Source: Desulfobacteraceae bacterium
GTDB taxonomy: Bacteria; Desulfobacterota; Desulfobacteria; Desulfobacterales; SKZT01
Assembly (NCBI GenBank): GCA_007127235.1
Contig: SKZT01000294.1
Span: 1-42,232 of the forward strand
Direction: 5' to 3'
DNA: 42,232 bases
Positions 5,495 through 10,094 of the stretch are shown here, piece by piece. The position numbers were made by a program, and so were the translations under genes. The notes under the pieces are model-generated. The model was not told the origin of the DNA. It did not search any database and was given only the letters and a program-made list of their open reading frames with translations. Within the stretch, counting starts at the first letter, position 1. Each line of letters begins with the position of its first letter.

Positions 5495-5838
5495 AGGACG
5501 GGGCAAGAAATTTTTATACCTTAGTTCCCACGCAAAGTATGGCAACGAGAAAAAAATGCAAAAGCACAGCTTTTGCACTCCTTCGACAAGTCACCCCCAC
5601 AGATTTCATATATTCAACATCCTGCATACCCCAGGCGTCAGAAGAAATTTGAGGCTTTTTTAAATCCCCCTAAATCCCCCTTTTGAAAAGGGAAACTTGC
5701 TGCACTCAACAACCCTTAGGTTGACGCTGGAGAAATTTCCTTTCCCGCTTCCCCCGATTATCATCAGAAAATTCCTTGATTATCCAAGCTCTTAAAGGTA
5801 AACTTATAAATTTTAATCACAAAAACCGATTTTTATGG
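5495..5838. other. Repeat-rich spacer after fumarase
   Basis: No convincing coding sequence is visible. The spacer contains a perfect 9-bp stem TGCAAAAGC/GCTTTTGCA (5557-5577) with a 3-base loop but no T-tract. A degraded inverted repeat of the GTTCCCACGC...GGCAACGAG type lies at 5524-5549. A C-rich direct repeat TAAATCCCCC twice (5661-5680) runs into CCCTTTT-G-AAAAGGG (5678-5692). These look like dispersed intergenic elements. A weak termination role for the first stem is possible. Confidence 0.5.
5557..5577 (+). terminator. Possible transcription end of frd-fum (stem without T-tract)
   Basis: A perfect 9-bp inverted repeat with a three-base loop lies 60 bases after the fumarase stop. It lacks a run of T, so intrinsic termination is uncertain. 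It could instead be a repeat element or an mRNA 3'-end stabiliser. Confidence 0.25.
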
Positions 5839-6522
5839 ATGAGCAGGCCTATGAAGCTAACGATTGATGAAGTTGCAGAATGTTTGGACGTTCCTTCAAG
5901 TACAGTAGAACGCTGGATTCGCCAGGGGCGGATTCCTGTAAGCAAATCCAGCGGTGCATGTTTTTTTCAAAAATCAATACTGTATGTCTGGGCTAAAAAG
6001 CATAATCTTCCATTCACTCTGCCCGAGGAAAAAATCACTCAAATTGATGAAAAAAAATCGGACAGCCTTTGTAATGTCATGTCTTTCGGCGGCGTTTATC
6101 ATAATATCCGGGGCAATAATGTTGACGAAGTATTGGCATCGTCGGTTAAAAACATTGCCTTTTTGGATGAAGACGGACAACAAATGCTTCTGACAAAATT
6201 ACTTGAGCGAGAGGAAATGGCCTCCACCGGGATCGGCAAGGGGATCGCCATTCCGCATCCTCGCATGCCCATGGATGAAACCATGGAAGAGCCCGTGATT
6301 ACCACCTGTTTTCTTGAGCATCCGGTCGATTTCAATGCGGTGGATGGTTTAGCCGTTTTTGTTTTGTTTATACTCCTGAGTCCATCGGTGAAAATTCATC
6401 TTTATCTGCTTTCAAAGCTGGCTTTTTGCGCCAGAGATGCGTCCTTTGTTGAATTTCTAAAACAGGGCCCGGATGAAAAAGCCTTATTGGAAAGAGTTGA
6501 GCGTTTGGAAAAGTCCTTGTAA
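5839..6522 (+). CDS. Helix-turn-helix protein fused to a PTS EIIA (PtsN-like) domain
   Basis: The 227-residue chain has two parts. Residues about 5-55 are an excisionase/MerR-like DNA-binding helix-turn-helix (LTIDEVAECLDVPSSTVERW, then IRQGRIP). Residues about 85-225 match the EIIA domain of the fructose/nitrogen PTS, with GIGKGIAIPHPR around the phosphorylatable histidine H140. No PTS permease lies nearby. The start is either ATG 5839 or ATG 5851; an AGCAGG-like site favours 5851, so the first four residues are uncertain. It lies 36 bases upstream of a ClC channel gene and probably shares its transcript. A phosphorylation-sensing regulator of the channel cassette is an inference. Confidence 0.8.
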   Translation: MSRPMKLTIDEVAECLDVPSSTVERWIRQGRIPVSKSSGACFFQKSILYVWAKKHNLPFTLPEEKITQIDEKKSDSLCNVMSFGGVYHNIRGNNVDEVLASSVKNIAFLDEDGQQMLLTKLLEREEMASTGIGKGIAIPHPRMPMDETMEEPVITTCFLEHPVDFNAVDGLAVFVLFILLSPSVKIHLYLLSKLAFCARDASFVEFLKQGPDEKALLERVERLEKSL

Positions 6523-6558
6523 AGCGATCGTCAAGAAAATCATCAAAAAGAGCTGCTT

Positions 6559-8274
6559 ATGAAACCATGGAGATACCCTGCCCGATGGGCATTGTTTAAG
6601 ATGGATGACCGGCTTTTGCTGATGTTTATCGGGGCCATAGTGGGCACTTGCAGCGGAATTGCAGCGTTGGCTTTAAATCACTCCCTGCATTTTCTGCTTG
6701 AAGCGCTTTCTCACTGGCGGCAACACTGGTGGGCCTTTGTTTTACCGGCCGCCGGTGCTGCGCTCTCCTCATTATTTCTGGAAAAAATTGTTAAAGAAGG
6801 TGCAGGACATGGGGTGCCTGAAGTAATCTACAGTGTTTCCCGTTATGGCGGCCTTATTCGTCTTCGTTCTGCTTTTTCGAGACTTATTTCCAGTTGTCTG
6901 ACCATCGGAAGCGGCGGAAGTGCGGGTCCTGAAGCCCCGGTTGTTATGAGCGGGTCAGCCATTGGATCCAATATCGCCCGTTTTTTTTCCTTAAACGACC
7001 GCCAGAGAGTCACTCTGGTTGGATGCGGAGCCGCCGGCGCCATCTCATCGATTTTCAATGCCCCCATCTCAGGTATCGTGTTTACCATCGAAGTTATTTT
7101 GGGTGAGTGGACCGCTTTGAATATCATACCCATTGCCATCGCTGCGGTGGCAGGAACTGAAATCAGCCGGGCCCTTCAGGGAGACCAGATTGTATTCAGT
7201 CCCCAGGTGTTTGATATCGGCATGGGGGATATTTTTGCATCTATCGGACTGGCTGTTTTTACTGCAATAGCCTCCATTGCATTAACCCATGGGTTGCGCT
7301 CCATGCACCAAATATCCGGTAAAGTTAAAGCGCCCCTGTGGATACGAGCGGGAATCGGAGGCTCTTGTGTCGGTATTATCGGTCTTTTTCTTCCGGTGGT
7401 ACTTGGAGAAGGATACCATTTCGTACATACCATGATTGAGGGCAACTTTACACCTGGCCTTGCCTTTGTGGCTGTGGCTTGTATGGCCAAAATCTTGGCC
7501 ACTTCCCTCACTCTGGGATGGGGGGGCTCCGGAGGAATCTTTGCACCGTGTCTGGTGATCGGCAGTCTCACGGGATTGACTTATCATCGCATGCTTTCAG
7601 CAATCTGGCCGTCCGTGAATTGGGTCAATGAGGGATGCTATGCTCTTTTGGGTATGGCAGGGTTGATCAGCGGTATGCTTCAAGCACCCCTCACCGGCAT
7701 TTTCCTGATCGTTGAAATCACAGGTGGTTATGCCGTTATTCTTCCCCTGATCATTGTATCGGCTATTTCGGCCACATTGTGCCACTATATCGAACCATCC
7801 TCTTTTTACCTGAAAGAACTGGTGGATCGGGGCCATCTGCTCAGGCCAGGCACGGATGCCAGGGTATTATCGGATTTAAGCATCAAGGAACTTTTAGAAA
7901 CCGACTGCGTTTGTGTAAATCAAAATATGCCGATACGAGAATTTATTAAAATTGTGGAAAATTCCCGCCGCAATTATTTTCCGGTGGAAGACGACGCAAC
8001 AGGAGAATTCGTGGGCATGTTGCATTTAGATGATATTCGGCCATATTTGTTCAACCGAATGCTATATGACGCCGTTCTGGTGGGTCAAATCATGAATCCG
8101 AATGTGGAAACAGTGCTTCCCGATGATGACCTCACAGAGATTCTTCATAAAATGGATTCGCAAAGGCTTTTCAGTATACCAGTTGTGGTAAACAACCGCT
8201 TTGTGGGGATGATATCCAAAGCAACGCTTTTGGATAAATACCGAAAAGAATTGATGGTTCAAACCACTTCTTGA
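6559..8274 (+). CDS. ClC-family chloride channel/antiporter with CBS domain pair
   Basis: This is an integral membrane anion transporter of 571 residues. The ClC core (about 15-425) shows many hydrophobic helices, the first selectivity motif as GHGVP (83-87), the second as GSAGPE (120-125) and the third as GGIFAP (about 325). The C-terminal 130 residues form two CBS repeats that usually sense adenine nucleotides. In E. coli ClC the second motif is GREGP with gating glutamate E148; here that position is A122, with a glutamate three residues later (E125). This pattern is known in other prokaryotic ClCs and may alter proton coupling. It sits between the HTH-EIIA and USP genes. Confidence 0.9.
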   Translation: MKPWRYPARWALFKMDDRLLLMFIGAIVGTCSGIAALALNHSLHFLLEALSHWRQHWWAFVLPAAGAALSSLFLEKIVKEGAGHGVPEVIYSVSRYGGLIRLRSAFSRLISSCLTIGSGGSAGPEAPVVMSGSAIGSNIARFFSLNDRQRVTLVGCGAAGAISSIFNAPISGIVFTIEVILGEWTALNIIPIAIAAVAGTEISRALQGDQIVFSPQVFDIGMGDIFASIGLAVFTAIASIALTHGLRSMHQISGKVKAPLWIRAGIGGSCVGIIGLFLPVVLGEGYHFVHTMIEGNFTPGLAFVAVACMAKILATSLTLGWGGSGGIFAPCLVIGSLTGLTYHRMLSAIWPSVNWVNEGCYALLGMAGLISGMLQAPLTGIFLIVEITGGYAVILPLIIVSAISATLCHYIEPSSFYLKELVDRGHLLRPGTDARVLSDLSIKELLETDCVCVNQNMPIREFIKIVENSRRNYFPVEDDATGEFVGMLHLDDIRPYLFNRMLYDAVLVGQIMNPNVETVLPDDDLTEILHKMDSQRLFSIPVVVNNRFVGMISKATLLDKYRKELMVQTTS

Positions 8275-8308
8275 GGTTACAGTAAAAACTGAGGCAAGGA
8301 ACTAATTC

Positions 8309-9133
8309 ATGATTCCCAGAATCTTACACATTTTTCAAAACACACCTCTTGGTCGTGAAAGCCTTCTTCAGGCCGCTTATTTTTCAAAACAATTGGAAGC
8401 ATCATTAATCGTCTATATACCACAACATATCAAGTTTCTTATGTATTTTGACAATGATGTGGTCCAGATTGATCTGGACCCCTCTTATCTGTATTCTCCG
8501 GATACCGCCAAGGATCATGCTGCTGAAATTATAAAAGAAGCCGGAGTCGAACCTTTATTTTTAGAGCCAAAACATTTTACTGCATCATCCCTACCCGATA
8601 TACCCGCAGATTTCGATTATATGGTCTGCCCTAGAAGTATCAGCGACCTGTCTGCCAAAATCGGCTTCGGATATGTGGGGGCCAAAGTTCGAAACATCTT
8701 CAATGCTGCCAGATTTCCCGTGCTGATCCCCAGTTATGTATATAAACCATGGAAAAATATCGTGGTGTTTTATGGGGGATCGGCCAATGCCAGCAACGCA
8801 TTAAAACTTGGGTTTCAAATCCGGAAAGAAACACGTTTCCCTCTAAATTTGTTTACTTATGCAGAAAAAGCCCCCGGTGATTATCGCAAAGAAATTATCA
8901 ATATGGGCCTCGAAGATGACCTCAACCGCCAAGTCGATAACTGGCGAATTTTTGAATCCGGAAATCTGGTCGACAACCTGTACCATGTACCCCATGACGC
9001 CCTGGTGATTTTAGGTGCTTTTGCCCATGGCCTGCTACGGAACATAATGTTCGGAAGCAAGCTTGAAAAAATTCAGGCTGCCCTTGCCAATAATCTGCTG
9101 GTTGTTGGCCCCAAATATTCAGCCCCTATCTGA
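8309..9133 (+). CDS. Universal stress protein, two tandem USP-like domains
   Basis: The 274-residue protein appears to consist of two alpha/beta USP-like halves. The second half ends with the ATP-binding-type pattern GAFAHG...FGSKLEK...LLVVGP. The first half (RILHIFQN...GYVGAKVRNIF...PVLIPS) is more diverged. No membrane segment or signal peptide is visible. AAGGA precedes the ATG. It lies 34 bases after the ClC gene, in what looks like a three-gene cassette HTH-EIIA/ClC/USP. Its role is inferred to be energy or stress sensing. Confidence 0.75.
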   Translation: MIPRILHIFQNTPLGRESLLQAAYFSKQLEASLIVYIPQHIKFLMYFDNDVVQIDLDPSYLYSPDTAKDHAAEIIKEAGVEPLFLEPKHFTASSLPDIPADFDYMVCPRSISDLSAKIGFGYVGAKVRNIFNAARFPVLIPSYVYKPWKNIVVFYGGSANASNALKLGFQIRKETRFPLNLFTYAEKAPGDYRKEIINMGLEDDLNRQVDNWRIFESGNLVDNLYHVPHDALVILGAFAHGLLRNIMFGSKLEKIQAALANNLLVVGPKYSAPI

Positions 9134-9134
9134 C

Positions 9135-10094
9135 ATGCCATTTAAAAAGCTATTGACAATTCATCAGGGGGCTCTGGGCGATGTGATAACAAGTTTCACT
9201 GCACTTTTGCTCCTGAAGCAAACATACAATCAAATTCATCTCCTGTGCCCTCAGGCCATTGCACGTGTGTCAGAATATCTGGGGGTTGTGGATAGCGGCT
9301 TCGGCCTGGAATCGGCGGCTTTCTCATACCTTTTTTCGGAAAGGCCGGATAATACGAATACCGCTTTCAATAATTTTTTACGGTCCCATGACGATATTGT
9401 GCTGTTTTCATATTCGAAAATCCTGTCGGAAAATTTAGAGAAAATAACCGGCAAGAGGGTTTTTCAAATTCCACCCCGCCCTTTACCTTCCGAACCCGTT
9501 CACGTGGCGCAGTCTCTGATATCACATCTGGTGAACTTAAAACTTCTGAAAAAAGGGGATGAAAAAAATTTTTTGCGTGTACATCGAGACTTTCGAATTA
9601 AATTCAGAAAACAAAGAGTTTTTATTCATCCGGGCTCCGGAAGCTCTACAAAAAATTGGCCTCTGACATATTTTGGGGAATTGAAAAAACTGCTGTCTGA
9701 AAACGGTTTTGAGCCGGTGTTTCTCCTGGGCCCTGCAGAAAAAGATATTTCAGAAATCCTCCATAGAAAATCTGATTGTCTTCAAGGGCATCCCCTGCAT
9801 CTGTCCGACCTTGTTGAATTGGTAAACACCTTAAAAACAGGAGGCGGCTTTATCGGAAACGATTCGGGAGTGTCTCATCTGGCAGCATTTCTGGGTCTGC
9901 CGGCGCTGGTCATATTTGGCCCGACAGATACGGCTCGATGGTCGCCTTTGGGTTGTCGGGTAGAAACTATTTGTAGTCCAACATTGTGCCCCCCCTGTTT
10001 TGAAACCGCCCAAAAAGGATGTGACGCCATGAAGTGCCTTACGGAGATATCGCCCAGGCAGGTTCAAAACAAATTTAATATGTTGATACGTTAA
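9135..10094 (+). CDS. Glycosyltransferase family 9 (ADP-heptose:LPS heptosyltransferase-like)
   Basis: GT9 enzymes add heptose from ADP-heptose to the lipopolysaccharide core on the inner face of the cytoplasmic membrane. The 319-residue product has the N-terminal glycine loop GALGDVI, the donor-domain motif FIHPGSGSSTKNWP and the late motif GNDSGVSHLAA...LVIFGPTD. I chose ATG 9135, one base after the preceding stop, because the longer frame from 9063 only re-reads the USP gene. The 3' end overlaps the convergent racemase-like gene by 20 bases. The exact acceptor cannot be told from sequence. Confidence 0.85.
   Translation: MPFKKLLTIHQGALGDVITSFTALLLLKQTYNQIHLLCPQAIARVSEYLGVVDSGFGLESAAFSYLFSERPDNTNTAFNNFLRSHDDIVLFSYSKILSENLEKITGKRVFQIPPRPLPSEPVHVAQSLISHLVNLKLLKKGDEKNFLRVHRDFRIKFRKQRVFIHPGSGSSTKNWPLTYFGELKKLLSENGFEPVFLLGPAEKDISEILHRKSDCLQGHPLHLSDLVELVNTLKTGGGFIGNDSGVSHLAAFLGLPALVIFGPTDTARWSPLGCRVETICSPTLCPPCFETAQKGCDAMKCLTEISPRQVQNKFNMLIR

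Follow-up and report, generated by a model that had tools for sequence, protein, structure and literature searches.

Among the closest described relatives of the system reported here are the ion-transport circuits of the phosphotransferase system (PTS), in which PtsN (EIIA-Ntr) acts on TrkA, KdpD and YcgO. Unphosphorylated PtsN is reported to bind and inhibit the K+/H+ antiporter YcgO (PMC11808508). A 2026 review names K+ homeostasis as a principal function; its main text uses none of the terms 'chloride', 'DNA-binding' and 'fused' (PMC13104625). Here, we analyse a three-gene cassette in a stretch of 42,232 nucleotides from a Desulfobacteraceae bacterium (contig SKZT01000294.1; in the following, the window). 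It encodes a regulator joining a helix-turn-helix (HTH) domain to a PTS EIIA domain (HTH-EIIA), a ClC transporter and a tandem universal-stress-type protein (USP). The cassette is a real and conserved regulatory set that is undescribed within the reach of our searches, i.e., we found no description of the HTH-EIIA/ClC/USP arrangement in the openly licensed literature. We regard it as a variant of the way in which the PTS controls ion transport.

With the PtsN circuits, the cassette has in common the EIIA_2 histidines, EI and HPr as donors encoded in the genome and a presumed ion-transport output. It differs in that its EIIA carries a fused DNA-binding domain and is encoded together with its presumed target, and in that this target is a ClC. 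A better PtsN candidate is found elsewhere in the genome within an rpoN-hpf-ptsN-EIIAman cluster (rpoN and hpf assigned by eye), and HTH-EIIA fails the PtsN equivalog TIGR01419 (59.4 bits vs. a cut-off of 138.7). Chlamydial HTH-EIIA proteins (gene name presumably ptsN_2) show the same domain order and both histidines, but their gene lies beside ptsN instead of a ClC and they form a separate clade (SH-aLRT 100).

TeaD, a parallel for the third gene, is encoded together with the ectoine transporter TeaABC. It is described as a USP subunit, and a TeaD-like ATP site is reported for KCC cotransporters (PMC8280820). An EIIA-like fold has also been described for the cytosolic domains of SLC4 proteins (PMC4664831). 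The SLC4 fold (AE1, AE2, AE3) matches the EIIA part of HTH-EIIA and the tandem-USP-like fold of SLC12 cytosolic domains (KCC/NKCC, 3g40) matches the third gene, while both are fused to the transporter in the SLC families and separate here. The transporter folds are unrelated, and the likeness of the separate proteins is one of fold.

The three genes lie on the same strand with intergenic gaps of 36 and 34 bases, where the first-pass annotation, made from the letters of the window, had placed them (5839-9133). The respective features are:

5839..6522, + strand: HTH-EIIA regulator, MerR/excisionase-type HTH plus PTS EIIA (Pfam, NCBIfam, predicted structure)
5857..5982, + strand: HTH_17 DNA-binding domain (Pfam E 3e-9, 37 bits vs. 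a cut-off of 27)
6103..6498, + strand: PTS_EIIA_2 domain (Pfam E 6e-22, 79 bits vs. a cut-off of 27)
6256..6258, + strand: phospho-acceptor His codon, residue 140 counted from start 5839 (aligned to the GIAIPH motif of PtsN, 1a6j)
6397..6399, + strand: second conserved active-site His codon, residue 187 (alignment)
6559..8274, + strand: ClC transporter with two C-terminal CBS domains (Pfam Voltage_CLC E 3e-78, 264 bits vs. a cut-off of 24.8; ClC of 1kpl E 2e-38)
6931..6933, + strand: external gating Glu codon, E125 (alignment to ClC-ec1)
8309..9133, + strand: tandem universal-stress-type protein (AlphaFold2 model and structure searches)
9014..9058, + strand: USP ATP-binding-type motif in the C-terminal repeat, residues 236-250 (alignment of 43 copies)

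The co-occurrence of the genes, a check suggested by the first-pass annotation, was studied in a class sample of 147 genomes. It contains 95 ClC orthologues at ≥54% identity, while paralogues reach at most 34% among the matches listed. HTH-EIIA is the next gene upstream on the same strand in 93/95 cases (median of 69 bases between match ends, largest 726), which is far beyond chance. The USP is next downstream in 76/95, and all three genes are present in 75/95. Of the 95 ClC matches, three are incomplete. The ClC paralogues (≤34% identity) were left out, as were the N-terminal half of a split ClC gene (contig C145 of genome G125), short USP fragments (G081:C8, G095:C155) and a 93-residue HTH-EIIA fragment (G074:C143). 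In G144 the trio is apparently split, with HTH-EIIA at the end of one contig and the ClC end and USP on another.

The arrangement extends beyond the class. In a phylum sample (E ≤1e-110), 11/247 genomes match, 6 of them inside the class. All five outside have HTH-EIIA directly upstream; three are with USP, one is without, and in one the contig ends within the ClC. In G215, one of those with USP, the genes are spread over two contigs. Among named genomes, we considered 80 loci out of at least 567 confirmed and examined the neighbours at 29, and again at the 28 with full-length HTH-EIIA genes; another 51 match the query in part. This ClC follows 9/28, namely 7 from Desulfobacterota/Deltaproteobacteria (including Desulfospira joergensenii DSM 10085), 1 from Calditrichota and 1 from Acidobacteria by record title, whereby metagenome bins may carry wrong titles. 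There is overlap between the named and the unnamed set, with L123 identical to L085, such that the 107 HTH-EIIA proteins aligned below are not all independent. For residue statistics, 60 of the 92 cassette regions besides that of the window were aligned; with the window this gives 61, of which 43 have the USP.

For the regulator, the proposed fusion of a DNA-binding domain to an EIIA with phosphorylatable histidine is borne out by the Pfam domains and the His codon listed above. Translation may start at ATG 5839 or ATG 5851. The predicted structure has a mean predicted local distance difference test (pLDDT) value of 89.9, and PtsN structures are the best matches of its EIIA part (top E 1.4e-10). 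An alignment of HTH-EIIA proteins of every gene context, without L145, shows both active-site histidines in 107/107. Within the 70 ClC-type copies, the HTH residues R25, W26, Q29, G30 and W51 do not vary, and 69/70 have P33. The residue following the predicted phospho-His tracks the partner type in the alignment: it is Pro in 66/70 ClC-type, Val in 24/27 Hyf-type and Thr in 4/4 chlamydial proteins.

Phosphotransfer proteins, the other check suggested by the first-pass annotation, are encoded in the genome of the window (95% complete): EI lies beside HPr, and a second EI carries a GAF domain. In the class sample, the EI N-domain is found in 143/147 genomes; the HPr search covered the genome of the window only. 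Besides the PtsN-like gene next to EIIA-man, that genome encodes another EIIA_2 gene and, on contig C193 (L004:1270-3390), an amino-acid permease that carries EIIA_2 and TrkA_C as fused domains. The cassette had been described as lacking a PTS permease. A permease search of the whole genome, which covered the family PTS_EIIC (PF02378) only, found none.

The second gene was annotated as an anion channel with nucleotide-sensing CBS domains, and Pfam finds Voltage_CLC and two CBS stretches, for which nucleotide sensing is a putative role. Its E125, which we take to correspond to E148 of ClC-ec1, is kept as external gating Glu in 61/61 aligned cassettes. At the position of the internal proton Glu (presumably E203), no Glu is found in 61/61; the residue is Val in 46, including the window, Ile in 12 and Ala in 3. 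That is, the cassette ClC lacks the internal proton Glu of ClC-ec1-type H+/Cl- exchangers; it may be a channel or an exchanger. Voltage_CLC and the gating Glu are shared with ClC-ec1, while the position of Ser107 is His in 59/61. Y417 is Tyr in 61/61 and is taken to be the pore Tyr (Y445 of ClC-ec1), although the ClC-ec1 alignment stops at residue 410, short of this position. Compared to the ClcB-like ClC with CBS (NCBIfam PRK01862), Voltage_CLC, gating Glu and CBS pair are common, but the cassette ClC scores 257.9 bits, below the cut-off of 482. A fluoride-type CLC identity was rejected, as the sequence is much more distant from CLC-F structures (E 2.5e-9 vs. 2e-38).

The third gene was called a double universal-stress protein, which is right by fold: judged by its predicted structure, it is a double USP, though not by sequence profile. 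The AlphaFold2 model (seven sequences) reaches a pLDDT of 77.9 and a predicted template modelling score of 0.81. Its best matches are tandem USPs (3ab7; Foldseek E 5e-11; Z 17.0, root-mean-square deviation 3.6 over 219 residues), and further fold matches are the cytosolic domain of a prokaryotic cation-chloride cotransporter (3g40, Z 11.6), KCC, NKCC and TeaD (3hgm, Z 9.1). TeaD is a single USP domain serving a TRAP transporter, whereas the cassette USP is tandem, lies beside a ClC and has a putative effect on it; the TeaD-like trait of a USP adjoining its transporter holds for the 76/95 loci only. The USP ATP motif, for which we assume the pattern G-2x-G-9x-G(S/T), is largely kept within the family (G236 43/43, G239 41/43, G249 42/43, S/T250 40/43).

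HTH-EIIA proteins are also found next to other machines. The class sample has 113 matches, of which 20 are away from this ClC: 16 directly precede a Hyf/Nuo-like membrane module, 2 are linked to MotAB and 2 lie at contig ends (G079:C75, G144:C386). In 16/16 Hyf-type loci of the class, a HyfB-like gene lies 20 to 336 bases downstream (tblastn), and the one module tested by Pfam holds Proton_antipo_M, NADHdh and Oxidored_q2. Among the 28 named loci, 11 more precede Hyf-like modules in several phyla, 4 from Chlamydiae adjoin a further EIIA gene, 2 are cut, and the last 2 lie among other genes. In total, 27 loci are Hyf/Nuo-linked (L043-L058, L126, L128-L131, L133, L134, L137-L140). Since the partners comprise ClC, Hyf/Nuo-like modules and MotAB, the family looks dedicated to ion-translocating machines. 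We consider this pairing the strongest new point, and the Hyf link a possible tie of the PTS to membrane energy conversion, of which we saw no description.

We related partner type to descent in a tree of 77 proteins (quick method, every second of 60 cassettes), in which 39/73 inner branches have a support below 80. Partner type mostly follows clades, with 7 changes on the tree where shuffling gives 31.3 on average. A single Hyf-type copy is placed apart from the Hyf clade. The two MotAB copies are nested inside the ClC group, and this regulator has therefore apparently changed partners.

Given these results, we put at about even the chance that the cassette forms a self-contained ClC unit responsive to energy state, with the operon controlled by a local transcription factor that the PTS phosphorylates and the ClC acted on by a USP that senses ATP. 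At high phosphoenolpyruvate (PEP), EI/HPr or the GAF-EI branch would phosphorylate His140 of HTH-EIIA. This may alter the oligomeric state of the regulator or its DNA affinity at its own operon promoter, such that ClC and USP levels would follow the PEP/energy state. The tandem USP would bind ATP and serve the ClC in trans as its regulatory subunit, comparable to what has been proposed for TeaD on TeaABC, and the ions moved by the ClC could keep charge or volume in balance during K+ uptake or mechanosensitive release. The conserved set thus suggests an undescribed coupling of anion flow to energy state. In favour are gene order, orientation and spacing, both histidines, the HTH, the gating Glu, the tandem-USP fold and the presence of PTS donors without PTS_EIIC.

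The first-pass annotation had likewise read the set as a unit that controls anion flux and is linked to phosphorylation and energy. Co-inheritance and the presence of EI and HPr support this part, while no conserved operator was found upstream; phosphotransfer, DNA binding and gating are steps that we infer. The control unit is nevertheless the best reading because both checks that could have refuted it, for genes found apart and for a genome devoid of PTS donors, came out in its favour.

Several observations weigh against the self-contained unit. With regard to the USP, 18/93 HTH-EIIA-ClC pairs are without an adjoining copy, i.e., it is not obligatory; among these, the G029 contig stops behind the ClC, and the USP of G126 is on another contig. 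The USP of the window has no Pfam or NCBIfam family at 1e-3, and a USP-family profile finds nothing significant among the sequences of solved structures (best 3hgm, E 0.3). Its model drops below a pLDDT of 50 at residues 110-126 and 239-251, including part of the ATP motif, and the window has Ala at 239 in place of the motif's second Gly. Genome G109 holds a second tandem-USP copy that is solitary, with no ClC nearby (L209:4259-5098). Concerning the regulator, the ClC of G145 is a real exception to the pairing (for the other ClC without HTH-EIIA, in G052, the contig starts inside the ClC). HTH-EIIA lies directly downstream of motA-motB in G145 and G037 (L040, 1491-2186; L042, 4065-4781; Pfam on one). 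G068 (98% complete) and G088 (88%) have the pair and no EI match. Finally, we screened the 200 bases ahead of each of 61 HTH-EIIA genes for gapped direct and inverted repeats, and none rose above shuffles; the missing shared operator may reflect divergence between families. As a side result, we inspected by eye the 18 downstream regions of the pair-only cassettes for another USP substituting for the tandem one; none was seen, with L061 ending at a contig edge.

Control might also work differently. The EIIA could bind the ClC at its CBS domains or cytosolic face and inhibit or activate it by phosphorylation state, with the HTH only autoregulating the operon. This resembles PtsN, which is reported to act on K+ transporters by contact (PMC11808508; PMC13104625), and would fit the EIIA fold being that of the cytosolic domain of SLC4 anion exchangers, seen as a fold match and described before (PMC4664831), as well as the EIIA- and TrkA_C-fused permease of the same genome. 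We still consider contact control unlikely: the tested HTH residues in the ClC group are as invariant as the EIIA histidines, and the Hyf/Nuo-like and MotAB partners are unrelated to ClC, such that each would need a new interface, while DNA control should transfer more easily. Slightly less probable, in our view, is a salt- or stress-response operon with an ordinary stress protein as USP and a regulator sensing a non-PTS signal, i.e., a ligand at the EIIA site. The MscS or Trk neighbours seen in some genomes and the two EI-less genomes would be in accordance with it, but both catalytic histidines in all 107 proteins are hard to explain without phosphotransfer, and EI is nearly universal in the class sample.

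HTH-EIIA could also regulate a distant regulon, with its position beside the ClC inherited without a functional link. The two copies beside motAB would agree with this, and a common murI, recR and ebfC/dnaX-region neighbourhood (by eye) points to vertical inheritance. On the other hand, the adjacency holds over many families with differing upstream genes and also in the Acidobacteria and Calditrichota records, and the mostly clade-wise partner type speaks for a link as well. We therefore regard the distant regulon as very improbable.

The local, self-contained unit might be one case of a wider scheme, which we put forward tentatively and think more doubtful than not. HTH-EIIA proteins would be widespread PTS-phosphorylated local regulators, each serving one ion-translocating machine (ClC, Hyf/Nuo-like pump or MotAB stator), with PEP availability setting the traffic of ions and protons. 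For the ClC branch, this would mean that EIIA and tandem USP act in trans on the anion transporter. Animal SLC4/SLC12 transporters carry these two folds fused, and the cassette would be a bacterial 'loose-parts' form of chloride transport under nucleotide and phosphate control. The Hyf-like and MotAB relatives suggest a general principle. The genome has PTS donors, several EIIA and no PTS_EIIC, and a conserved regulator with its presumed target in the next gene makes EIIA control outside K+ homeostasis directly testable for chloride-type transport. The cassette would offer a genetically simple system for EIIA- and USP-like modules on anion transporters, which also bears on the fused SLC4/SLC12 counterparts.

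Upstream of the cassette, the commonest 7-mer marks the following feature:

5775..5804, + strand: candidate sigma-70-like promoter (CTTGATT, 17-base spacer, TAAACT)

CTTGATT is present in 17/61 upstream regions (200 bases), while the three highest top-7-mer counts among 20 shuffled sets are 15, 15 and 17. On its own, CTTGATT is thus weak evidence of a promoter. The intergenic stretch before the cassette also contains AAATCCCCCT twice in tandem (window 5662-5681). We presume that AAATCCCCCT may be a dispersed intergenic repeat.

Among the neighbouring genes, an MscS-type gene is next upstream in 10/60 cassettes (Pfam on the L119 copy), and in D. joergensenii DSM 10085 trkA and trkH take this place. 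Such neighbours fit ion or volume control, without proving it. As a general upstream neighbour, trkAH was dismissed: no TrkA/TrkH match is found in the 60 others, where about 900 bases upstream were covered and a trkA farther away could be missed. The murI, recR and ebfC/dnaX-region genes lie beside the cassette in the window and in several genomes. A YfbR-like HD-domain gene is upstream in 9/60 cassettes (L121:4741-5289 and relatives) and also near both MotAB-linked HTH-EIIA genes. Downstream, the USP is followed by a GT9 (heptosyltransferase-like) gene both in the window (9063-10094, Pfam) and in G089 (L207:1530-2519, by eye).

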